Shown: positions 5,397 to 33,416 of the stretch, piece after piece
Numbering within the stretch: the stretch's first letter is position 1
Layout: each line of letters begins with the position of its first letter
Assembly (NCBI GenBank): GCA_937884235.1
Contig: CALGBT010000575.1
Span: 1-33,416, forward strand
Length of the DNA stretch: 33,416 nt
Source of the DNA: an uncultured Pseudomonadota bacterium
GTDB lineage: Bacteria; Myxococcota_A; UBA9042; CAIXZC01
Reading direction: 5' to 3'
Position numbers and translations under genes: made by a program
Notes under the pieces: model-generated
What the model was told of the DNA's origin: nothing
The model's database searches: none
Seen by the model: only the letters and a program-made list of their open reading frames with translations

Positions 5397-8300
5397 CTAT
5401 GGAATCGATACCGTGTTGGCCTTCTTGCCAGGCAGGCCGTTGGTGCCGTTGACCGGATAGCCCTGTGATGTGAGCCCGCCGTTTCCGCCCTGGCCCGGTG
5501 CGCCCAGAGCGTAGGTCGTGGCCTGCACTTTTGGTGCCTTCGCCTTATCGTAGAGAAGCGCGGCACTGTTGCCTCCGGAGCCGCCTCCGCCGACTCCCCC
5601 GTTGCCGCCGTCGCCACCCGCACCACCGAAACCTCCCTTCCCAGACCCCGCGTAACCTTTGCCGCCCAATCCACCGGCTCCACCCTGGCCTCCTTTGCCG
5701 GCCTTACCGCCGTTGCCGCCCTTGCCGCCCTTGGCTGTGGTGAGTTCACAGCCGATGATAGCGATGGGGGATTTGTGGAGAACTATGGCCATGGAACCGC
5801 CGCCAGCTTTGCCTCCTTTGCCTCCTGTGCCGGAGGTTCCGCCAGCCCCGCCGCCGCCCCCGCCGCCCCCCTTGGAGTCACACCACAGGTAGGCGTCGTT
5901 CTTGTGCTTGCCCATGCCGCCGCCACCACCGCCGCAGCCATCGACGCCGTTGCCACCGTCATTGCCGGCGTCCCCAATCCAGCCAGATTTGGTCAGCGCG
6001 CCCTTGGTGAAACCACCCTTGCCCTGACTGCCACCCGGGCCGTCGATGCCGTCGCCGCCATTGCTGCCGTTGTTGCCGTCACCAGCGTAGATGCCGCCGT
6101 CGCCACCCATTTCCTTGCCCCACTTCTTGTAGCAGCACGATGGCTCCCCGACGTCGATTCCGGTCCACGTCACCTTTGCCCCCGGGCTCCAGGGCCCGGC
6201 TGTGGGGATATCGCCGATGCCGTCGCCGCGGCCGCCACAGGTGAACTCCATTCCTAGTGCCCCGGCGGCAAACCCGGGACAGGTGTTGTCGGTGTTGGGG
6301 TTATTGCAGATGGGCGAAGAGCTGCTGAAGCAACCGCTTGTGGCGTTGGCTCCAGCCTTGCCATTCATGCCGTTGACACCGTCCATGCCGTTAGCTCCAT
6401 CAGCGCCGTTACCAGCCTTGATGGCCACCATGGTGAGGCTCAGTCCAGGGCTCTCAGAGGCAAAGAGACCAACTGAACTTTGCCCTGCGGCGATGGCCTT
6501 GGCAGCCTGAATGGTGAGGCGGCCGACGCTGGTTTGACCGATCAACTTGAAGCCCTCCACGGCTGTTGGGCCACCGACTACCAGGCTCTTGGCCGCGGGG
6601 CTGGAAGACCAGTTCTTCGCTGCCATGTAGCCTCCCCAGACATGGACCCCCGGGCGCAGCTTGATGCTTCCGGGATAGGTGCCAGTGTCCACCAGCACAG
6701 AGTCCTTGTACGAGTTGCCGTGCACCGAATCGATGGCCGACTGGATCGTCTTCTTGGGTTTTTGCATGGTGCCCGGATTCGTGTCTGCCCCTTTCGCTAC
6801 TGAAACGAATACCGAGCGCTCGATATTGCCATCGATGCCGTCGCAGTTCTGGTCCACGCCCAGGAGGTCAGGGAGGTCGTCGGCCCCCGGGTTGATGGCC
6901 GAGTAGGCGTCGTTGCAGTCAGCCGCGGCGCTCGGCAGGCAGTAGATACAGCCTGGTGTTATCACGGCATCCGCAGCACAGTAGCCATCCTGGTCGACGT
7001 CATATCCTTCGTCGATCTGCGAGTCACAGTTATCGTCCAGGTTATTGCAGATCTCCGGGGCTCCAGGGTGGACCGTGTAGTTTTTGTCATCGCAATCGAA
7101 GAATCCCTTGGGACAGCTTTTCTCTACAGCATCGCACTGAGCTTCAGTGGCCATGGGAGTGCCCAGGTAACAGTTGGCCACGCTGTCTGGGGGAGCGTTC
7201 ACGCAGTAGCCGTCAGCATCGCCGTCGCAGCCGTCGTCCACCTGCAGGTTGCAGTTCTGGTTGATACCGTCGCAAAGCTCGATCGCACCAGGATGGACGG
7301 ATGCGTCGTCGTCATCGCAATCCACCTCCGGCGAAATGCAGAGGAGGCCGACTCCCCACTTGAGTACCGGGGCATGGCAGTAGCCGTCGCCGTCTTGATC
7401 GCACCCCTCGTCGGGAATCTGGTCACAGTCGTTGTCCAGTCCGTCGCACCATTCCTGGTGGCCCGGATGGATGTTGTCCGAAAGGTCGTTGCAGTCCATT
7501 AGCGGGTATCGACAGACCATGTCCGGGCCGTAGGCCAGCGGTTCCTGGGAGCAGTACCCGTCACCGTCGAAATCGCACTGTTCATCGACCTGTCCGTCGC
7601 AGTTGTTGTCGATGTTGTCGCACAGTTCAGGGGCGGCCAGGTAGATGGCAGGGTTATCGTCATTGCAGTCCAGGCTGTTGTCGACGGCGCCTGGGCCAGG
7701 CTGACAGGCGCACCTGATATTCTGGCTGCCGTAGCCATCGCCGTCGGCATCGACGAAGAAGGCGATGCAGTCGGCGGCCTCGGCCTCATCCACTTCGCCG
7801 TCGCAATCGTTGTCCAGCCCGTCACAGACTTCGGCCTCTGCTGCGGGAGCATTGCACACCGGTATTCCGGACAGGCACTTCTCCACGCCCGGGCATGTGC
7901 CGTTGTTGTTGGTGATCTGACAGGGCTTGTCCGGAATCTCGTCGTCAGCTTTGCCGTTGCAATTGTCGTCCAGTCCGTTGCAGACCTCATCCAGTGGTGG
8001 TGGTGCGTCGCATTTGCCCAGGCCATCTTCGGTGCAGTACCGCTCTCCCACGCACATGCCCTCCGCGTGGTCGACACATGCGGTTGAATGGCCAAAGTTG
8101 GTCTCGGCCCACGCACAATCGCACTCGCCCTCCCAAGCTACGCATCTCTCTTCGTGGCACTGGAAGCCGTGGGGACAGGCTGAATCCTCGTTGCACGAGG
8201 TGGTGCAATAGGCCCCGATCTCTTTCTCCGCCAGGCCGCAGAAGGAAGCATCATCGCCGGGGAAGCGTGCGCAATCGCCAGAGTCATGACAGGGTCGGCA

Positions 8301-8693
8301 ATAGGGCAGGAATTGGCCAATGCAGACGTTGGTGATGCTGTCCCGCTTAGCCCCCACCGCGCGGCAATCATATCCCAGGGGACACTCTTCCACACAGGGG
8401 GTAGCGCAAAAGTAGCCTGAACCTTCGTCCACGCACGGTAGTCCCGCACAGTCGGCGCTGGTCAGGCAGCTCTGGCCGGCATGCTCAGCGGCGGTTGTGA
8501 GATCCCCTTCGTCCCAGTCCTCAAAGGTCAGGCCGGAGTCTGGGGTGCCGCCGGGCTCGTCGGCTAGAAAGGCCGGCAAGTCCGGGTCTGGGTCTGTCCA
8601 CGTATCGAAGGCCACGGGGTCAAAGTTCGCAGGATCGCTGCCGCAGGCGGACAGCAGGGCCAGGAAGAAGATAATGCTTGAGAATTGCTTCAT
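5397..8693 (-). CDS. Secreted lipoprotein: Cys-rich N-terminus, MopE-type metal-binding motifs, beta-helix-like segment and glycine-rich/collagen-like C-terminus
   Basis: From MKQFSSIIFFLALLSACGSD (lipobox) with upstream GGAGGTG. Motifs such as VCDGLDNDCDGEVDE, then VSVAKGADTNPGTMQKPKKTIQSAIDSV and long G-x-x/GG-rich tracts. Track start 8735 is 14 codons upstream. Confidence 0.9.
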   Translation of the reverse strand: MKQFSSIIFFLALLSACGSDPANFDPVAFDTWTDPDPDLPAFLADEPGGTPDSGLTFEDWDEGDLTTAAEHAGQSCLTSADCAGLPCVDEGSGYFCATPCVEECPLGYDCRAVGAKRDSITNVCIGQFLPYCRPCHDSGDCARFPGDDASFCGLAEKEIGAYCTTSCNEDSACPHGFQCHEERCVAWEGECDCAWAETNFGHSTACVDHAEGMCVGERYCTEDGLGKCDAPPPLDEVCNGLDDNCNGKADDEIPDKPCQITNNNGTCPGVEKCLSGIPVCNAPAAEAEVCDGLDNDCDGEVDEAEAADCIAFFVDADGDGYGSQNIRCACQPGPGAVDNSLDCNDDNPAIYLAAPELCDNIDNNCDGQVDEQCDFDGDGYCSQEPLAYGPDMVCRYPLMDCNDLSDNIHPGHQEWCDGLDNDCDQIPDEGCDQDGDGYCHAPVLKWGVGLLCISPEVDCDDDDASVHPGAIELCDGINQNCNLQVDDGCDGDADGYCVNAPPDSVANCYLGTPMATEAQCDAVEKSCPKGFFDCDDKNYTVHPGAPEICNNLDDNCDSQIDEGYDVDQDGYCAADAVITPGCIYCLPSAAADCNDAYSAINPGADDLPDLLGVDQNCDGIDGNIERSVFVSVAKGADTNPGTMQKPKKTIQSAIDSVHGNSYKDSVLVDTGTYPGSIKLRPGVHVWGGYMAAKNWSSSPAAKSLVVGGPTAVEGFKLIGQTSVGRLTIQAAKAIAAGQSSVGLFASESPGLSLTMVAIKAGNGADGANGMDGVNGMNGKAGANATSGCFSSSSPICNNPNTDNTCPGFAAGALGMEFTCGGRGDGIGDIPTAGPWSPGAKVTWTGIDVGEPSCCYKKWGKEMGGDGGIYAGDGNNGSNGGDGIDGPGGSQGKGGFTKGALTKSGWIGDAGNDGGNGVDGCGGGGGGMGKHKNDAYLWCDSKGGGGGGGGAGGTSGTGGKGGKAGGGSMAIVLHKSPIAIIGCELTTAKGGKGGNGGKAGKGGQGGAGGLGGKGYAGSGKGGFGGAGGDGGNGGVGGGGSGGNSAALLYDKAKAPKVQATTYALGAPGQGGNGGLTSQGYPVNGTNGLPGKKANTVSIP

Positions 8694-8923
8694 GGTGCAC
8701 CTCCAGGTTTGTTTGGGCATTGTGCCGTTCCTCACTCCTCACCCTCTTTATCGGGAGGAGCGATACCAAAGACCTGAAATTTCTTGTTTCACCTGTTATT
8801 TTAGTGGGTTACGTTTTTTGGTCTCGGGGAAGTGAATAGTCGTGCGCCCGCCGGCGTCTGTCTGCCCCAGTTGCCAAAGCGCAGCGGCCACCAGCACGGT
8901 CCGCTGAAAACTAGGAGGAAACC

Positions 8924-17581: not shown

Positions 17582-19381
17582 CTAATTACCGCAGGAAGGT
17601 GCCGGGCCGCCGCGTTCTTCAGCGGCGAGTTGCTTCTTGCAGCCTTCGAAGGTGGGGTTGTGCTGGCAGATGTTCTTCTGCACGGTAGCGGCGTCGATAC
17701 CGGAGAACTGGTGGCGTCCATCAGCAATCCAGGTCGGGGAGCCGGAGATGCCAAGCTGCTTGGCAAGCTTCATGTCGTCGAGGAGCATCTTCGTTCCGTC
17801 GCCCTTGAAGCATTCTTCGATGACCGCAGCATCGATACCGTCGGTGGCGCATGCCTGCCAGTTGGTATCTTTGATATTCTTGTTGCGGCAGAGGATGTAG
17901 GTCATGTACTTCGCGGGGTACTTGGTGATGGCGCAGAGTTCACGGATGTTTTCGTCAACTTCGCTCTGGCCGTGCATGGAGGTAGGCTTGCCGTCCTGCT
18001 CGTCGCCGATGAAGTGGACGGAGAACTTGATTTCGTCGCCAAAGGCGGCGAGGACTTCTTCCATGGCATTGAGAGCTTTCAGGCCGAAGGGGCATTCTGA
18101 CATGACGAAGACTTCGAGCTGTCCTTTGACCTCGGCGCGGCAGAGGAGGTTGTTGGCGCAGGTTTCGTCGTCGCAGTCAACCTTGCCGTTGCCGGTGTCG
18201 TCGACTTTGTTGTCGCAGATCTCGGCGTTGGGGTCGTGCTGGGCACGGCCGGCGAAGACCTTCCAGGTGCCAGTCTTGGAGGGCTTGAGGAAGCGCTGCA
18301 GGCGGGCGTAGCCGTCGCCTTTCTCCACGTCGTTGCCAAAGAGAATGACGGGGAGGAAGGTGATGCCTTCGTCAGCGTAGAGCTTCTTGGCTTCTTCTTC
18401 GGCCCAGTCGAGTTTCCGTATTTTCATGCCGGGGAACATGGAGCCAAAGCTGCTCTGCAGCCGTGCGGTGTCGCAGCTACGGTCGGTGCAGCGCTTGTCT
18501 TCGAGGATGATGGCTTCGAATTCCACGGGCGGCGGAATGTCGGAGCAGGCCTGGGGCTTGGAGCCTTCGGGCAGACCACCGCAGATGGCGCGCATGTAGT
18601 CCGCTTCGCCACGGCCACCACGGTAGGGCTGGTCGTTGAGGAACATGGTGGGGCTGCCACGGGCGCCGGCCTTCTGGGAGAGCTCGTAGGAGGCCTTGAG
18701 CAGGCCCTTGCCTTCTTCGCCTTCGTAGCATTCTTTCAGCTTCGGAATCTCGGCTTCAAAGCCGGCTTCCTTGGCGCATCCTTCCCAGTTACCGGGGATG
18801 GCGCGCATGTTCTTGTTCATGCAGTCGAGGATGCCGAAGTACTTGTAGTTCTCGGCGAGGTGCAGCTGGGCGCACATCTGGATGATGTTGCCCTGGACTT
18901 CTGCTTCACCGTGCATGGAGGTGAGCTGGTCGCCCTGGACGTTGCCGATGTATTCGAGGCGGAAGTCAACATAGTCGCCGACCTTCTTGAGGACTGGGCT
19001 GATGCCATTCATGACCTGGGTACCAAAGGGGCATTGGGACATGACGTGGAAGGTGAACTTGACTTTGGCGCCGGAAGCGTTGGCTTCGGGCTTGGCTTCT
19101 TCGGGCTTGGCTTCAGCAGGCTTGGCCTCTTCGGGCTTGGCTTCTGCAGGCTTGGCTTCTTCGGGTTTGGCTTCTTCCGGTTTGGCCTCAGCAGGCTTGG
19201 CCTCTTCGGGCTTGGCTTCCGCTGGCTTGGCTTCTTCGGGCTTGGCCTCTGCGGGCTTGGCCTCTTCCTTCTTGGCCTCTTCCTTCTTGGCCTCTTCCTT
19301 CTTTCCTTCGTCAGCAGCCTTGGGTTGGCAGGCGACTGCAAAGGCGAGCAGCACGGACAGCACCAACAGTTTCACTCTCAT
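17582..19381 (-). CDS. Lipoprotein with (EEAKPAEAKP)n linker, two GILT/DsbA-like thioredoxin-fold domains (CPFG), and a central Cys-containing domain
   Basis: MRVKLLVLSVLLAFAVACQPK lipobox; Lys/Glu/Ala/Pro linker; VMSQCPFG...LTSMHGEAEVQGNIIQMCA...GARGSPTMFLN and VMSECPFG...PTSMHGQSEVDENIRELCA...GISGSPTWIAD; middle RCTDRSC and DDTGNGKVDCDDETC. Confidence 0.88.
   Translation of the reverse strand: MRVKLLVLSVLLAFAVACQPKAADEGKKEEAKKEEAKKEEAKPAEAKPEEAKPAEAKPEEAKPAEAKPEEAKPEEAKPAEAKPEEAKPAEAKPEEAKPEANASGAKVKFTFHVMSQCPFGTQVMNGISPVLKKVGDYVDFRLEYIGNVQGDQLTSMHGEAEVQGNIIQMCAQLHLAENYKYFGILDCMNKNMRAIPGNWEGCAKEAGFEAEIPKLKECYEGEEGKGLLKASYELSQKAGARGSPTMFLNDQPYRGGRGEADYMRAICGGLPEGSKPQACSDIPPPVEFEAIILEDKRCTDRSCDTARLQSSFGSMFPGMKIRKLDWAEEEAKKLYADEGITFLPVILFGNDVEKGDGYARLQRFLKPSKTGTWKVFAGRAQHDPNAEICDNKVDDTGNGKVDCDDETCANNLLCRAEVKGQLEVFVMSECPFGLKALNAMEEVLAAFGDEIKFSVHFIGDEQDGKPTSMHGQSEVDENIRELCAITKYPAKYMTYILCRNKNIKDTNWQACATDGIDAAVIEECFKGDGTKMLLDDMKLAKQLGISGSPTWIADGRHQFSGIDAATVQKNICQHNPTFEGCKKQLAAEERGGPAPSCGN
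19084..19302 (-). repeat. Degenerate tandem array of ~15-bp units coding for EEAKP/AEAKP repeats
   Basis: Repeated TTCGGGCTTGGCCTC/TTCAGCAGGCTTGGC-type units visible on the plus strand. Confidence 0.85.
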
Positions 19382-19570
19382 TTGATTCTCCTCTACTGGT
19401 TATCCAAAAAAAAGTCTCGATTACGCGTTTCAAGTGTGGCCATTGGCCAACTGCCGAGGGATGATAATCGACGCCTAATGGCAATGCAACCCCTTTCTTT
19501 AACAGAGAAGTGTGCGGCTTATTTCTGGAAATTGATGGCGGGTCCTGTTAGGATGGCAACGAGGTAGACG

Positions 19571-26497: not shown

Positions 26498-27180
26498 TCG
26501 TTGAGCTGCGCCACATCCAGAAGAGCTACGAGGCGGCCTCGGGCATCCCGGTGTTGAAGGACGGGAACGTGGCCATCGAGGAGGGGGAGTTCGTTGCCAT
26601 TCTGGGCAAGAGCGGGTCCGGCAAGACGACGTTGCTCAATATCATCGGCGGTCTTGACCGGGACTTCAAGGGGGAGGCCATCGTGGCGGGCCGCAACCTT
26701 CAGAAGATGGGCGATCGGGCTCTCTCCCGATTTCGCAATGAGACCATTGCCTTCATCTTCCAGACCTTCAATCTGTTGCCCCACCTGACCTGCCGCGAGA
26801 ACGTCGCCTTTCCGGCCTACTTCGCCGGCAATGCCGCGAACCGCGCGGAGGTGGCACAGCGCGCTCAGGAAGCGATGGAACGGGTTGGCATTGAGCACAA
26901 GGCGGCCAGTGTGCCGGGGCGGTTGTCAGGCGGCGAACGCCAGCGGGTGGCCATTGCCCGGGCGATCTTCCAGAAGCCGAGGATTCTGCTTGCCGATGAA
27001 CCCACGGGAAATCTTGACTCGGTCTCTGGTCGGCACGTTCTGGATCTATTTATGGAGTTGAATCGAGAAGATGGCATGACCTGCATGTTGGTGACCCACG
27101 ACGAGCAGCTGGCGAAGATGGCCAGCCGCATCGTCCGCATTGCGGACGGTCAGGTCGTGGGGGAGGAGAGGCCGGCATGA
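26494..27180 (+). CDS. ABC transporter ATP-binding protein (LolD/MacB type)
   Basis: Walker A GKSGSGKTT, signature LSGGERQRVAIARAI, Walker B ILLADEPTGNLD, LVTHDE. Confidence 0.96.
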   Translation: MIVELRHIQKSYEAASGIPVLKDGNVAIEEGEFVAILGKSGSGKTTLLNIIGGLDRDFKGEAIVAGRNLQKMGDRALSRFRNETIAFIFQTFNLLPHLTCRENVAFPAYFAGNAANRAEVAQRAQEAMERVGIEHKAASVPGRLSGGERQRVAIARAIFQKPRILLADEPTGNLDSVSGRHVLDLFMELNREDGMTCMLVTHDEQLAKMASRIVRIADGQVVGEERPA

Positions 27181-29141
27181 AGGCGAGTCGTCTGGTGGCG
27201 GTGGTGCTCCAAAATGTGCGGCGAAATCGCAAGAATTTCGTTTTTTCGGCCATTGGAATCACCGTTGGCGTCTGTGTTTTCTCGTTTTTCACTGCCTTGA
27301 CCATGGGAGTCAGGGTGGAAGTACTCAATCGTATCTACCCCGTCGATTTGATCGAGGTTGAGCCGGCTTCTGTAAACATCGCCGGGACCAAAAGTAGCAT
27401 TGAGAAGGTGCCCTTTCGTGAAGAAGGCGTGACCATGCTCCTCAAGGAGCCGGGAGTCGGCCGCATCTTCCCGAAGCTGCGCTCCCGCTTTCAGGCTACC
27501 TACCGCATGGGGGGGCAGCTCTTCGGGCAGGATGGCATCACCTTTGAGGCCTACTTTGACGGGCTGGACGGTGGTCTCTTGCGGCGTGAACTGAAAGAGG
27601 GCGAAGAGCTGCGGGCCGGGAAGTCCGTGAAGGACAGGTTGGAGGCCCGCTACGGCCGCGAGCACCGCTGTTACGATGCTGAGGACTGTTCTCCTGGAGA
27701 GGAGTGCCGCGAGGGGCTCTGCCAGAAGGTCGAATACTGGTCGCTCTTCCGGGATTGGCGAGAGTATATCCCCTGTCGTGACGAGAGTATCTGCGCGGCC
27801 GGCTACGGTTGCCGCTATGAGCAGTGCCGGGCACTGTGCAAAGCCGATGATGAATGCCTGGCCGAGGAGACCTGTCTCAGGTCGCCCTGTACGAAGGATG
27901 AAGATTGTGGCCCCGGCGGCTGTGTCGCCGGGCGTTGCTCTACCGGGGCTTGTTTCTTTCCGTGTGAAGGCGGTTGTCCGGCCGGTCAGGAGTGCATTCC
28001 TGCGGTTTGTTTGACGGCTGCAGATTGCTCGGACGGTCCTTGTTACGAGGGACAATGCGCGCTGGGTGGAACCTGTACTTTCATGTCCTGTGTGCAGCGC
28101 CGGAAGGAGCGGGAAGTGCTGGGCAATCCGGACATGATTCGAGGCGAGCGACCGGGGCTGTGTGACGACGGCACTCCGGTTCCTGAGGGGGGAACCTGCG
28201 TGCTGGCACGTTGCCCCGTGGGCAGCTACTGTTCTGTCCATACCTACTTCAAGCCCGGCAGTCTGTGGCGGGACAAGCGGGGCGAGGGCCGGTGCGAGCA
28301 ACCGATCCCCGTGGTCTTGAATCCCATTGTCATGGAGATCTTCAACATGGTGCTGGGGTCGACGTTGGACCGGGCACAATTGGGCACCGTGGACACGTTG
28401 TTGGGATATGGTGCCTATGTCACCTTCGGGCATTCCTTCTACAAGGACCCGGTCAAGGACCGCACCCCGGTGCAGAAGCACATGCTGGTGGTGGGTTTCT
28501 CAAACAAAGCACTGGAGGCCGGCGTGACCATGCCCATGGCCTACGTGGACCGGGCCAATTCGCGGTACAAGGGCAAGGGCGCCAGTCAGGAATATGATTC
28601 CATGATCATCCAATTGGCGGCGGCGGAGCATCTGCCGGCGGTGATGGCGATGCTGGACCGCCTGAATATTCAGCTCTCCAGGCGCAGTTCTGAGGCCGAG
28701 AAGTTCAGGACCATTCTCCTCGTGGCCATCGCCATCTTCTTCATCATGGCGTCAATTATTCTGGCCATCGCCGCGGTGAACATCACGCATACCTTCCTGA
28801 TGGTCATCTACGAGCGGAACAAAGAGATCGGCATTCAGCGGGCGCTGGGTGCGACCAAGATGGACATCCGCCTGATCTTCCTGGGCGAATCGGTGCTTAT
28901 CGGTCTGGCCGGAGGGGCCATGGGCAACGGACTGGCCTATGGCTTGAGCCAGATCGCAGACTTCCTGGCTAATCGGTACATCGGAGATTTTCCTTTCCAA
29001 CCTGATACGTTCTTTCATTTTGAACTGTTGTGGGTTTTTGCCTCCACTGGTTTCGCCATCTTCTTCTCGCTGGTTGGTGCCTTCTTCCCCGCCAACCGGG
29101 CGGCGCGCATGGATCCAGCCAGGACTCTGACCGTAGGCTGA
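27177..29141 (+). CDS. MacB/FtsX-like ABC transporter permease with large Cys-rich insertion
   Basis: N-terminal VVLQNVRRNRKNFVFSAIGITVGVCVFSFFTALTMG; C-terminal NITHTFLMVIYERNKEIGIQRALGATKMDIRLIFLGESVLIGLAGGAMG; between them HRCYDAEDCSPGEECREGLC...CEQP with about 30 Cys. Confidence 0.93.
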   Translation: MKASRLVAVVLQNVRRNRKNFVFSAIGITVGVCVFSFFTALTMGVRVEVLNRIYPVDLIEVEPASVNIAGTKSSIEKVPFREEGVTMLLKEPGVGRIFPKLRSRFQATYRMGGQLFGQDGITFEAYFDGLDGGLLRRELKEGEELRAGKSVKDRLEARYGREHRCYDAEDCSPGEECREGLCQKVEYWSLFRDWREYIPCRDESICAAGYGCRYEQCRALCKADDECLAEETCLRSPCTKDEDCGPGGCVAGRCSTGACFFPCEGGCPAGQECIPAVCLTAADCSDGPCYEGQCALGGTCTFMSCVQRRKEREVLGNPDMIRGERPGLCDDGTPVPEGGTCVLARCPVGSYCSVHTYFKPGSLWRDKRGEGRCEQPIPVVLNPIVMEIFNMVLGSTLDRAQLGTVDTLLGYGAYVTFGHSFYKDPVKDRTPVQKHMLVVGFSNKALEAGVTMPMAYVDRANSRYKGKGASQEYDSMIIQLAAAEHLPAVMAMLDRLNIQLSRRSSEAEKFRTILLVAIAIFFIMASIILAIAAVNITHTFLMVIYERNKEIGIQRALGATKMDIRLIFLGESVLIGLAGGAMGNGLAYGLSQIADFLANRYIGDFPFQPDTFFHFELLWVFASTGFAIFFSLVGAFFPANRAARMDPARTLTVG

Positions 29142-29313: not shown

Positions 29314-32300
29314 ATGAAGAAAACGTACAAGCTTTGGCAGATCCTAGCGCTGGGTATGGCCGTCGCATCTCTGGCCTGTTCCGGGATAATCCCCGGCGAC
29401 GACGCGGTTGAACCGACTGATGTGGTCACCCCTCAGGATGTACCGGATGATCAGGGAACCAGTCACACCTTCGATCTAATGCCTGTTGATACTTTCAGCA
29501 AGGACGTCGTTGAAGATCTGACGGATGTCTTCATTCTGGATACCTACCTGCCGGACGTGCCGGTCCTTGAAGATGCCTTCCAATGGGACTGGCTACAAGA
29601 TTGTGACGTCCCCTACCTGGACCCTCTGGATGTTGAGGATACGTATGGGTGGGATTGGCAGATGGACTGTGACGTGCCCTACCTCAACGGTCCCTATCTC
29701 AACGATGTCAAAGGCTGGTACTGGGACGGCCATGGCGAGCCGCCCGAGCCACCTTGCAAATGGCAGGGGCCTTGCGCTTGTGATACCGACGAGGATTGTG
29801 TGCCCGGTTGGCAGTGTGAGCATCTGCCGACTCCCCCCTTCATTCCCAATGCCTGGGTCTGTGTCTACTTCGTGGATACCATGTGCATGCCGTGCAACGA
29901 GGATTCTGACTGCGTCAACAGCTTCGAGATCGAAGTGGGGCAGTGCCGCGACCTGGGCGGTCCAGGCAAATCCTGCGTCGTGAGTTGCGACGAGGACGAG
30001 GATTGTCCGCTGACTTCGGCATGCGTGGAAGACCCGCTTAACGAGGGTCAGACCATCTGCATGCCGCAGGATGAGTGCTGGTGTTCGAATCTGGCCAAGG
30101 AGTTTGGTTCCTGGAGTCTGTGCGCTGGCGAGTTGCCCGCCGACGGCTGCTCCGAGATTGTGGAGTGCACTGAGGATGGTCTTAGCGATTGCTATCAACC
30201 GGACCTTTCCGCCGAGGTTTGTGACGGCTTGGACAACGATTGTGACGGCCAGATTGACGAAGCGGGAGCCCTGGAATGTCAGGCCTGGTTTGCCGATGGA
30301 GACGTGGACGGGTATGGCGGGAATGAGATTGCCTGCCTTTGTGACGGCGCTGATGGTTACGTTCCGGCGGGCGGCGATTGCGACGACGAGAACGACCAAG
30401 TCTATCCTGGTGCAGAGGAAGATTGCAACGGGCTGGATGACGACTGTGATGGTGCGGCCGACGAGGACTTTGAGGATTTGGACCAGGACGGCGTAGCGGA
30501 TTGCGTCGACGATGACATCGACGGCGACGGCATCCCCAATGATGAAGCCCCGTGTCCCTTCGATGCTGAGTTTGGCCTGGGCGCACCGGATACTGACGGG
30601 GACGGTATCGCTGATTGCCTTGACCCCGACGACGACAACGACGGTTTTGGCGACGAGATTGATTGCGATCCCCTCAATGGCGACATCTTCCCCGAGGCCG
30701 GGGAAGTGTGCGACGGCGTTGATAATGACTGCGACGGTGACGTTGATGAAGAGGGAGCCGAGCTGTGCTTGCCCTATTATCCTGACGGCGACAACGATGG
30801 TTTCGGCATCGGTCTGGACAGCCCCTGTCTCTGCGCACCGGATTGGCCGTACACGGCTCCGGTCAATGGCGATTGCAATGACTCTGACCCCAAGGTGAAC
30901 CCCGAAGCTACCGAGACCTGCGATGGAGTTGACAACGACTGCGACGGTATTGTGGATCAGGAGGACACGCAGGGTTGTACCAACTGGTTCATCGATGAGG
31001 ACAGTGACGGTCTGGGTGGTGACGAATCCAAGTGCCTTTGCGGTCCCAGTCACCCCTACAAGACGAAGGTCGCGGGCGACTGTGATGACAGTGACCCCGA
31101 CGTCAACGTGTTGGCTGCGGAGGTCTGCAACGGCAAGGATGATAACTGTGACGGTGGGGTGGACGAGGCTGGTGCCGTGGGCTGCCAGCAGTACAAGATG
31201 GACAAGGACGGCGATGGCTGGGGCGTGAGCTTCCCCATCAAGTGTCTCTGTGAACCGACCGCCCCCTTCACTGCGACCCAGTCTGGCGACTGTGATGACA
31301 GTGACGGTGACGTCAATCCGGACGCCACCGAAGTCTGTAACGGTAAGGATGACGATTGTGACTTCGCCACCGACGAGGCCGGTGCTGAGGGTTGCAAGAT
31401 CTACTTCCTTGATGGAGACAAGGATGGCTATGGAACCGAGGCCATGTTCAAGTGCGTTTGCGGTCCAAAGGGATACTACTCGAGCGAGAATGCGCTTGAC
31501 TGCGACGACAATAGTGCTGCGGTTAATCCGGATGGCATAGAAGTTTGTGATGGCGTCGACAATGACTGCAATGGACTGCTGGACATGTTCCCAGACAAGC
31601 CCTGCTATGCGTTTGGTAGCGGTATTGAGTGCAAGGGCATGTTGATGTGTGACAATGGCGGCATGAAGTGCAGTGCCGAAGACCCCGGCGACGAGACCTG
31701 CGATGGCCTCGATAACGACTGTAATGGACTCATCGATGATGGCCCCGATGGCGGCGAATTGAACGGTTCCTGTTACACCGGTTCCTTCGGCACCCAGGGT
31801 GTAGGGCTGTGCGCAGACGGACACCGGGTCTGTGGTAATGGTGTCTGGGGTGTATGCGAGGACCAGGTTCTCCCCACCACTGAATTGTGCGATGGACTGG
31901 ACAATGACTGCGATGGCTTTGACGACGATGGATTTGTCATCAACGAAGGCTGTGTCAGCGGTCTGGGCCTTTGCGCTACTCCGGGTATGTACATCTGTGC
32001 CGAAGATGGCCTGGATGTGCTCTGTGAGACCTTGCCCCTGCCGGAGCCCCAGGAGGAACTCTGCGATGGACTGGACAATGACTGCGATGGCGTGGTCGAC
32101 GAGGAGTTCCTTGATTCCGATTTGGACGGGCAGGCCGATTGCACGGACAAGGACGATGACAATGATGGTATCGCCGACAAGTATGACAACTGCGTCCTGA
32201 CCCCCAACCCGCTCCAGCTGGACTTTGATGGTGATGGCTTGGGCGACAAATGTGACGACGACGATGACAATGATGGCACTGCCGATGGTGACGACTGCGC

Positions 32301-33416
32301 GCCCAAGAATGGCAATGTCTTCCCGGGGGCAGAGGAAGTCTGCAACGGAATCGACGACAACTGCTCTGGTGCAAAGGACGAAGGCTTCCCGGATACTGAC
32401 CTTGATGGAATCAGCGACTGCGAAGACCTCGACGATGACGGTGACGGTGTTCCAGACAAGGACGACAACTGTCCGCTGGTGCCCAATTTTACGCAATCTG
32501 ACTTCGATGCCGATGGCATGGGCGATGATTGTGACGCAGACGATGACAACGACGGCTCGCTGGATGTGGATGACTGTAAGCCGCTGAATCCCGCGGTCTA
32601 TCCCGGAGCTCAGGAACTTTGCGATGGCCTGGACAACGATTGCAACAAGATCATCGATGATCCGTGGCCCGATACTGATGGCGATGGCACCCATGACTGT
32701 GCGGATGTCGATGACGACAACGACGGAGTTATCGATGCTGTCGACAACTGTCCGCTGATCAAGAATGCCGACCAGGGCGATGCCGACGGCGACAAGATTG
32801 GCAATGCCTGCGAAGACGATGACGATGACGATGGCATACTTGACGGTGCGGACAACTGTCCGCTGGATGCCAACCCCGGTCAGGCTGACCAGGATGGCGA
32901 CGGCATTGGTGATGCCTGCGATGCTGATCTTGACGGTGATGGCGTGAACAATCCCGCGGATACCTGTCCGCTGCTGCCCAACCCGCAGCAAACTGACACT
33001 GACCAGGATGGTGCTGGCGATGCCTGCGATGACGACGACGACAACGACGGAATCGCTGACGGTGCGGACAATTGTCCGCTTGTGGCCAATGCGGATCAGG
33101 ATGACCTGGACGGAGATGGCATTGGCAATGGGTGCGATCCGGACATGGATGGCGACGGTGTGCAGAACAAGGACGATAACTGCCCCGGCATCGTCAATCC
33201 TGCCCAGGAGGACTCGGATGGCGACGGCAAGGGCAATGCCTGCGTCGGGGACGATGATGGCGATGGCATCAAGGACGAAGCTGACAACTGCCCCGATGAC
33301 TACAACCCGGGCCAGGAGAATGCTGACAACGATTTCCCCGGCAATGTTTGCGATCCGGACGCCGACAACGACACGGTCCCAGACGTCTCGGACAACTGCC
33401 CCTACACGGCCAACCC
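29314..33416 (+). CDS. Giant lipoprotein with Cys-rich N-terminus, MopE-type metal-binding motifs and thrombospondin type-3 repeats (partial, C-terminus beyond window)
   Basis: From ATG 29314: MKKTYKLWQILALGMAVASLACSGIIPGDD (lipobox). Frame open to window end (1367 codons). About 12 CDGxDNDCDGxxDE motifs, then many DxDxDGxxDxxDNCPxxxNPxQ repeats. Absent from ORF track. Confidence 0.95.
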   Translation, partial: MKKTYKLWQILALGMAVASLACSGIIPGDDAVEPTDVVTPQDVPDDQGTSHTFDLMPVDTFSKDVVEDLTDVFILDTYLPDVPVLEDAFQWDWLQDCDVPYLDPLDVEDTYGWDWQMDCDVPYLNGPYLNDVKGWYWDGHGEPPEPPCKWQGPCACDTDEDCVPGWQCEHLPTPPFIPNAWVCVYFVDTMCMPCNEDSDCVNSFEIEVGQCRDLGGPGKSCVVSCDEDEDCPLTSACVEDPLNEGQTICMPQDECWCSNLAKEFGSWSLCAGELPADGCSEIVECTEDGLSDCYQPDLSAEVCDGLDNDCDGQIDEAGALECQAWFADGDVDGYGGNEIACLCDGADGYVPAGGDCDDENDQVYPGAEEDCNGLDDDCDGAADEDFEDLDQDGVADCVDDDIDGDGIPNDEAPCPFDAEFGLGAPDTDGDGIADCLDPDDDNDGFGDEIDCDPLNGDIFPEAGEVCDGVDNDCDGDVDEEGAELCLPYYPDGDNDGFGIGLDSPCLCAPDWPYTAPVNGDCNDSDPKVNPEATETCDGVDNDCDGIVDQEDTQGCTNWFIDEDSDGLGGDESKCLCGPSHPYKTKVAGDCDDSDPDVNVLAAEVCNGKDDNCDGGVDEAGAVGCQQYKMDKDGDGWGVSFPIKCLCEPTAPFTATQSGDCDDSDGDVNPDATEVCNGKDDDCDFATDEAGAEGCKIYFLDGDKDGYGTEAMFKCVCGPKGYYSSENALDCDDNSAAVNPDGIEVCDGVDNDCNGLLDMFPDKPCYAFGSGIECKGMLMCDNGGMKCSAEDPGDETCDGLDNDCNGLIDDGPDGGELNGSCYTGSFGTQGVGLCADGHRVCGNGVWGVCEDQVLPTTELCDGLDNDCDGFDDDGFVINEGCVSGLGLCATPGMYICAEDGLDVLCETLPLPEPQEELCDGLDNDCDGVVDEEFLDSDLDGQADCTDKDDDNDGIADKYDNCVLTPNPLQLDFDGDGLGDKCDDDDDNDGTADGDDCAPKNGNVFPGAEEVCNGIDDNCSGAKDEGFPDTDLDGISDCEDLDDDGDGVPDKDDNCPLVPNFTQSDFDADGMGDDCDADDDNDGSLDVDDCKPLNPAVYPGAQELCDGLDNDCNKIIDDPWPDTDGDGTHDCADVDDDNDGVIDAVDNCPLIKNADQGDADGDKIGNACEDDDDDDGILDGADNCPLDANPGQADQDGDGIGDACDADLDGDGVNNPADTCPLLPNPQQTDTDQDGAGDACDDDDDNDGIADGADNCPLVANADQDDLDGDGIGNGCDPDMDGDGVQNKDDNCPGIVNPAQEDSDGDGKGNACVGDDDGDGIKDEADNCPDDYNPGQENADNDFPGNVCDPDADNDTVPDVSDNCPYTAN

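Follow-up and report, generated by a model that had tools for sequence, protein, structure and literature searches.

GILT is a disulfide-breaking enzyme of animals that has been studied almost exclusively in animals and plants, and there as a dithiol reductase. In the window (the whole stretch of bacterial DNA analysed here, 33,416 nucleotides), a gene on the minus strand encodes a chain in which a GILT-like domain occurs twice, and in both copies the active-site motif reads CPFG. The question that this locus raises is what such a protein might do in a bacterial cell envelope with one active-site cysteine per domain. From sequence and predicted structure we infer that the protein quite possibly acts on exported proteins as a monothiol disulfide isomerase or holdase anchored in the membrane.

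Gene extent and domain organization

The protein contains 22 cysteine residues in total and is composed of the elements listed in Table 1. The original prediction had placed the feature at positions 17582–19065, a span that begins at about the first GILT domain and includes the stop codon, but leaves out the signal peptide, the lipobox and the AKPEE repeats; the anchoring that it proposed is borne out by the LLAFAVAC lipobox and by lipobox-like sequences in the relatives. All motifs quoted in the prediction were found: MSQCPFG (C117) and MSECPFG (C430), TSMHGEAEV...NIIQMCA and TSMHGQSEV...NIRELCA, CMNKN and CRNKN, NWEGCA and NWQACA, ECYEG and ECFKG, and GSPT in both copies. The AKPEE/KEEA linker has a length of ~90 residues in the window gene's own family, as against ~20 in most other members. 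NF033662, to which the four-cysteine linker shows a weak match (E = 0.006), is an acidic double-disulfide repeat, and the tail of the window protein is short, with the final residues PAPSCGN. An open reading frame on the plus strand opposite the gene (18236–19567, 443 residues) was taken for a shadow that the repeats and the coding strand produce.

Table 1 Elements of the tandem GILT-like gene and its product, in window coordinates
Element	Position	Strand	Evidence
Whole gene, tandem monothiol GILT-like lipoprotein, 599 residues	17582–19381	−	Full-length orthologues
Signal peptide and lipobox LLAFAVAC, residues 1–18, Cys18 lipidated (predicted)	19328–19381	−	Lipobox-like sequence in 43/46 family members
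Low-complexity AKPEE/KEEA linker, residues 19–103 (about 85 residues)	19073–19327	−	
First GILT-like domain, residues 105–283	18533–19069	−	PF03227 E 1.9e-13; 6NWX profile match E 2.6e-8; AF2 pLDDT mostly >90
CPFG active-site motif of domain 1 (C117)	19022–19033	−	Cys in 45/46 members
Middle thioredoxin-like domain, about residues 284–385	18227–18532	−	PDO 1a8l: profile E 0.005 and Foldseek E 6e-3, weak but agreeing
Cys pair of middle domain, C298-x4-C303	18473–18490	−	Conserved in 43/46 and 45/46; aligned with PDO CQYC site
Acidic four-Cys linker (ICDNKVDDTGNGKVDCDDETCANNLLC), residues 387–417	18131–18223	−	Weak NF033662 match, E 0.006; Cys kept in 44–45/45
Second GILT-like domain, residues 419–582	17636–18127	−	PF03227 E 9.1e-9; 6NWX profile match E 8.9e-7
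CPFG active-site motif of second GILT domain (C430)	18083–18094	−	Cys in 45/46
Flexible C-terminal tail with invariant Cys597 (17591–17593)	17585–17635	−	Cys in 43/43; pLDDT <50 (model residues 493–502)

Both terminal domains adopt a GILT-type fold

The similarity of the protein to GILT lies far above the chance level. Taken singly, the two domains scored 51.1 and 36.0 bits against the Pfam GILT family (PF03227), both above the curated cut-off of 22.4, and two profiles, built from 21 and 22 orthologous domains, both had mouse GILT (6NWX) as their top match in the PDB, extending over the entire first domain. Modelled by AF2 with 24 family sequences, the 502-residue core had a mean pLDDT of 92.7; Foldseek placed 6NWX first (E = 4.3e-9, TM 0.79 on the target), followed by S. 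aureus DsbA and then by plant vacuolar sorting receptor 1 (VSR1). Pfam, the PDB profile search and the Foldseek comparison thus all support the GILT-like thioredoxin fold that had been predicted, and the predicted duplication is confirmed by PF03227 scores above the cut-off in each copy; the first and second domains share 34% identity. In common with GILT are the fold over the entire domain, the HGxxE and N motifs, six of the cysteines outside the active site and the cis-Pro loop. By contrast, the window protein has CPxG for CxxC, has lost the cysteines of CQHG and EC, and is a bacterial lipoprotein with two copies of the domain per chain and a third thioredoxin-like domain.

Against the DsbA family (PF01323), the single domains scored 18.1 and 24.8 bits, both below the cut-off of 25.6; the whole-protein score of 36.8 bits exceeds it only as the sum of two partial matches. 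DsbA proteins (S. aureus 3BCI; P. syringae 3gn3) share with the window domains a thioredoxin fold with a helical insertion, and 3gn3 likewise has a monothiol site, CPFS; the window protein differs in lacking CxxC, and the sequence similarity is marginal and confined to the C-terminal half. The family of the vacuolar sorting receptor TRX domain (PF25011) scored 13.5 bits, below its cut-off of 27. In VSR1 (8R4Y/9B1R), too, a GILT-type TRX domain is part of an anchored multi-domain protein and has the same helical-bundle cysteines, whereas VSRs are plant specific, have CxxxC and carry PA and EGF domains, for which no matches were found in the window protein; sequence matches between the two are weak, with E-values of 5e-4 to 0.06. 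For the VSR1 TRX domain the nearest folds are 6NWX and 3BCI, and its enzymatic activity is unknown (PMC11052993).

The retained active-site cysteine is the attacking one

As predicted, the second active-site cysteine is replaced by glycine in both copies, leaving a single active-site cysteine in each. The motifs are encoded by TGC-CCC-TTT-GGT and TGC-CCC-TTC-GGC; because the last codons are GGT and GGC, the glycine is genuine rather than a misread TGA, and selenocysteine at the position of the missing cysteine is ruled out. In profile alignments, the family motif CPfG falls without gaps on the CPYC site of an archaeal thioredoxin and on the CPFS site of 3gn3, and the retained cysteine is therefore the attacking (N-terminal) one. 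A MAFFT alignment had placed the CPFG cysteine of domain 1 on the second cysteine of CxxC; given the gap-free profile alignments, this placing was judged artefactual, a result of the addition of a single divergent sequence.

GILT proteins have CxxC, the signature CQHGx2ECx2Nx4C and ten conserved cysteines (PMC7017176). Tested for these motifs, the window domains have CPFG rather than CxxC, an incomplete signature, and seven of the ten cysteines each. The signature reads SMHGx2EVx2Nx4C, in which H, G, E, N and the last C are retained and two cysteines are gone. The claim that the cysteine of CQHG had become methionine proved to be off by one: in the alignment to mouse GILT, Ser155 and Ser468 (TSMHG) stand at the cysteine and methionine at the glutamine, and the second signature cysteine (EC) corresponds to Val162 and Val475. 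The joint loss of these two cysteines is as expected of a disulfide pair, and therefore suggests, without proving it, that they are paired in GILT. The six cysteines beyond CPFG match GILT cysteines, with one-to-one alignment in the first domain. With seven cysteines per domain, the CPFG thiol would have no in-domain partner if the other six pair; these six are probably structural, so that the CPFG thiol is probably unpaired.

Conservation and distribution of the family

The family set comprises 46 distinct sequences from about 30 genomes, 43 of them complete and used for counts in the tail. The first cysteine of CPx(G/A/W) is present in 45 of the 46 sequences in each domain, and the fourth motif residue is glycine, with alanine in three cases and tryptophan in one; CPxC occurs in none of the 46. 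The exception to cysteine retention (L040, 6617–8161 +, on G001:C306) is a degenerate extra copy that adjoins an intact tandem GILT gene. This copy lacks both CP cysteines, the middle-domain pair and the lipobox.

Full-length relatives occur in each of the four genomes of the window's own family, and three more families of the class have them too; GILT matches above the cut-off were obtained in 29 of 284 genomes of the phylum. In the family proteins retrieved, the two GILT matches lie in tandem, about 920 bases apart. A single scan of genome contigs yielded one true relative, in a deltaproteobacterial metagenome-assembled genome (L006). Judged by its gene content, the window's genome is likely to belong to Myxococcota. 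In a tree of all domains, 45 of the 46 first domains form one group that is free of second domains, with low support for the split (0.45); this near-perfect separation points to a single internal duplication that preceded the spread of the family. A sequencing or annotation artefact is ruled out by orthologues across several families and genera. No plasmid copies of the tandem GILT gene were found, its product matched none of the phage families in PHROGs, and the literature searched contained no CPxG or bacterial GILT proteins.

Middle domain and C-terminal tail

Between the two GILT-like domains lies a thioredoxin-like domain with the sequence Asp-x-Arg-Cys followed by a second cysteine, and with an invariant proline (LP) at the cis-Pro position. 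Retention of the first and second cysteines (43 and 45 of 46 sequences) is accompanied by a difference in spacing, CxxC in most relatives and CX4C in the window protein's own family. In the profile comparison the pair falls on CQYC of the protein disulfide oxidoreductase PDO from Pyrococcus furiosus (1a8l; E = 0.005, a weak score), and a model of the middle domain alone (pLDDT 90) likewise had 1a8l as its best, equally weak, Foldseek match. PDO is thus the top match by both profile and fold, with CxxC aligned to CQYC; it differs in that the scores are weak (E about 0.005) and concern a single unit only, and in that the window protein has CX4C. Some paralogues have lost one of the two cysteines of the pair and retain CPxG or CPxA. 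Set against PDI, which is defined by thioredoxin domains with CxxC and by disulfide isomerase activity, the chain has three thioredoxin-fold modules, of which only the middle one keeps a cysteine pair.

The tail carries a cysteine in all 43 complete sequences, in most of them 1–4 residues from the C-terminus, and the sequence around Cys597 is variable and predicted by AF2 to be disordered. The original prediction had overlooked this cysteine, the middle domain with its pair, the four-cysteine linker and the conserved tandem family as such.

A proposed monothiol isomerase or holdase and its alternatives

A thioredoxin fold with only its first cysteine can form mixed disulfides, whereas it does not complete dithiol reduction alone. 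Because one active-site cysteine has been lost and the other kept, the protein probably reshuffles or holds disulfides rather than simply reducing them. The arrangement would be that of a cell-envelope lipoprotein reading GILT(CPFG), Trx(Cys pair), acidic disulfide linker, GILT(CPFG) and tail cysteine. In the mechanism that we infer, a single nucleophilic CPFG cysteine at the N-terminus of a helix, facing the cis-Pro loop, would attack a wrong disulfide of an exported substrate to give a mixed disulfide. With no resolving cysteine in the motif, the adduct would be released by another thiol of the substrate, amounting to isomerization, or alternatively by an internal resolving thiol, for which the near-C-terminal cysteine and the middle-domain pair are candidates; the two heads may form a clamp that holds misfolded cysteine-containing proteins at the membrane. 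Among 4,082 sequences in a survey of thioredoxin folds, 8.9% had the N-terminal cysteine only (PMC2757866). The role of isomerase or mixed-disulfide module suggested in the original prediction agrees with the data; for its metal-binding alternative no positive evidence was found.

The main alternative is that the GILT-like heads are a non-redox binding module in which a partner protein or peptide occupies the cleft between CP motif and cis-Pro, with the CPFG cysteine serving local structure. VSR1 stands high in the Foldseek list and, among solved families, comes second in the first-domain profile search (E = 5e-4); its TRX domain has the GILT fold and forms part of a receptor, for which reuse of TRX has been suggested (PMC11052993). 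A many-domain lipoprotein with a long flexible linker resembles a surface receptor as well, the CQHG/EC signature is gone, and glycine in place of cysteine abolishes dithiol reductase chemistry. A purely structural role is, however, hard to reconcile with a CPFG cysteine that 45 of 46 sequences keep in each domain alongside a variable position 4 (G/A/W), and the seven-cysteine count gives this residue no partner in its domain; since the invariant tail cysteine and the middle-domain pair also favour thiol chemistry, we regard a binding module as somewhat unlikely. Alternatively, all conserved cysteines might be structural, the CPFG thiols being paired with the tail cysteine, with each other across domains or between two chains, so as to stabilise an exoplasmic protein that is a dimer or is closed covalently. 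Conserved cysteines at the extreme C-terminus can also form interchain disulfides. The 22 cysteines in an oxidising compartment fit this, as does VSR1, in which the last cysteine of the TRX domain pairs with a linker cysteine (PMC11052993), but the CP dipeptide at a helix start and the conserved cis-Pro loop are the catalytic geometry of the fold, and the 21 core cysteines are an odd number, so that at least one thiol must be free or intermolecular; an entirely structural role thus appears improbable.

A relay, reductive or oxidising, would shift catalysis to the middle-domain pair, with the CPFG heads delivering substrates in a PDI-like division of labour. Conservation of the pair in 43–45 of 46 sequences, its alignment with the PDO active site and the PDI-like multi-module layout agree with such a scheme; yet the alternation between CxxC and CX4C, the latter in the window protein, is unusual in a catalytic dithiol, and some paralogues with one middle cysteine only have kept CPxG or CPxA, making a relay quite improbable. 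Within the preferred reading of a monothiol isomerase or holdase, a more specific version is a three-module thiol isomerase in which the resolving cysteine of the two monothiol GILT heads has been outsourced to the flexible tail cysteine, the mid-chain dithiol domain or both, which we consider unlikely. In the literature searched, neither GILT nor Dsb proteins have been described with a disulfide-shuffling layout of this kind; if the tail cysteine is the resolving residue, the arrangement would be new among disulfide isomerases. The GILT fold and monothiol thioredoxin folds are each already known, but their combination in a duplicated CPxG lipoprotein with a third thioredoxin-like domain and an invariant terminal cysteine was not found in that literature. 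With its fold and attacking cysteine conserved and the second cysteine dropped twice per chain, this bacterial branch provides a natural test of the capabilities of a monothiol GILT or Dsb module.

Envelope thiol chemistry of the genome

The genome encodes a VKOR–DsbA fusion in one 436-residue frame (G000:C642, 6422–7609 +), which is a likely source of oxidising power for the envelope, and two DsbD/CcdA-type proteins of a reducing route; both routes could serve the tandem GILT protein. Tandem DsbA-domain proteins on three further contigs (C452, locus L095; C647, L098; C871, L094 and L097) have an in-frame TGA at the first active-site position (UPFC/UPYC), with two such sites each in two of them and UPYC followed by CPYC and CPYC in one. 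As tRNA-Sec (79 bits) and SelB (318 bits) are present in the genome, these proteins look like multi-selenocysteine DsbAs. Together with the VKOR–DsbA fusion and the many exported cysteine-rich proteins, they make the thiol chemistry of this envelope appear unusually rich.

Genomic surroundings and cysteine-rich neighbours

In the window's family, the tandem GILT gene is flanked by a divergent aroQ–TPR–PilZ cluster and a DUF218 gene; in another family it lies in a syntenic block with genes for a Thy1-type thymidylate synthase and a cysteine-rich von Willebrand-like lipoprotein, and with tolB and brkB-type genes. No conserved redox operon partner was found among the neighbours examined, which are housekeeping or lipoprotein genes, and synteny differs between families.

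The window also encodes two large MopE-repeat lipoproteins (5400–8735 − and 29314–33414 +) with 73 and 106 cysteines; the latter additionally has thrombospondin type 3 repeats and extends past the window edge. The original prediction had linked the GILT-like protein to nearby cysteine-rich lipoproteins, and the proximity is real, but the link is not specific: MopE-repeat counts, which are lower bounds, are very high in most of the 53 relatives covered, and families that lack the GILT gene are just as rich in these repeats. For the same reason, the gene is not generally required for MopE proteins. Next to an ABC ATPase gene and the second MopE lipoprotein, the window holds an FtsX-type permease of 654 residues (27177–29138 +) that looks unusually cysteine-rich (31 cysteines, 4.7%).

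At eight loci (among them L030, 6579–9188 +, and L036, 7564–10173 +), paralogues of the tandem GILT gene from another family adjoin a conserved lipoprotein of ~870 residues with a weak C-terminal match to glycosyl hydrolase 65. The von Willebrand-like lipoprotein, a cysteine-rich protein of 926 residues with a DDSSSMG motif, is found near the orthologue within the Thy1/tolB/brkB-type block at L076 (2725–5502 +) and at seven syntenic loci.
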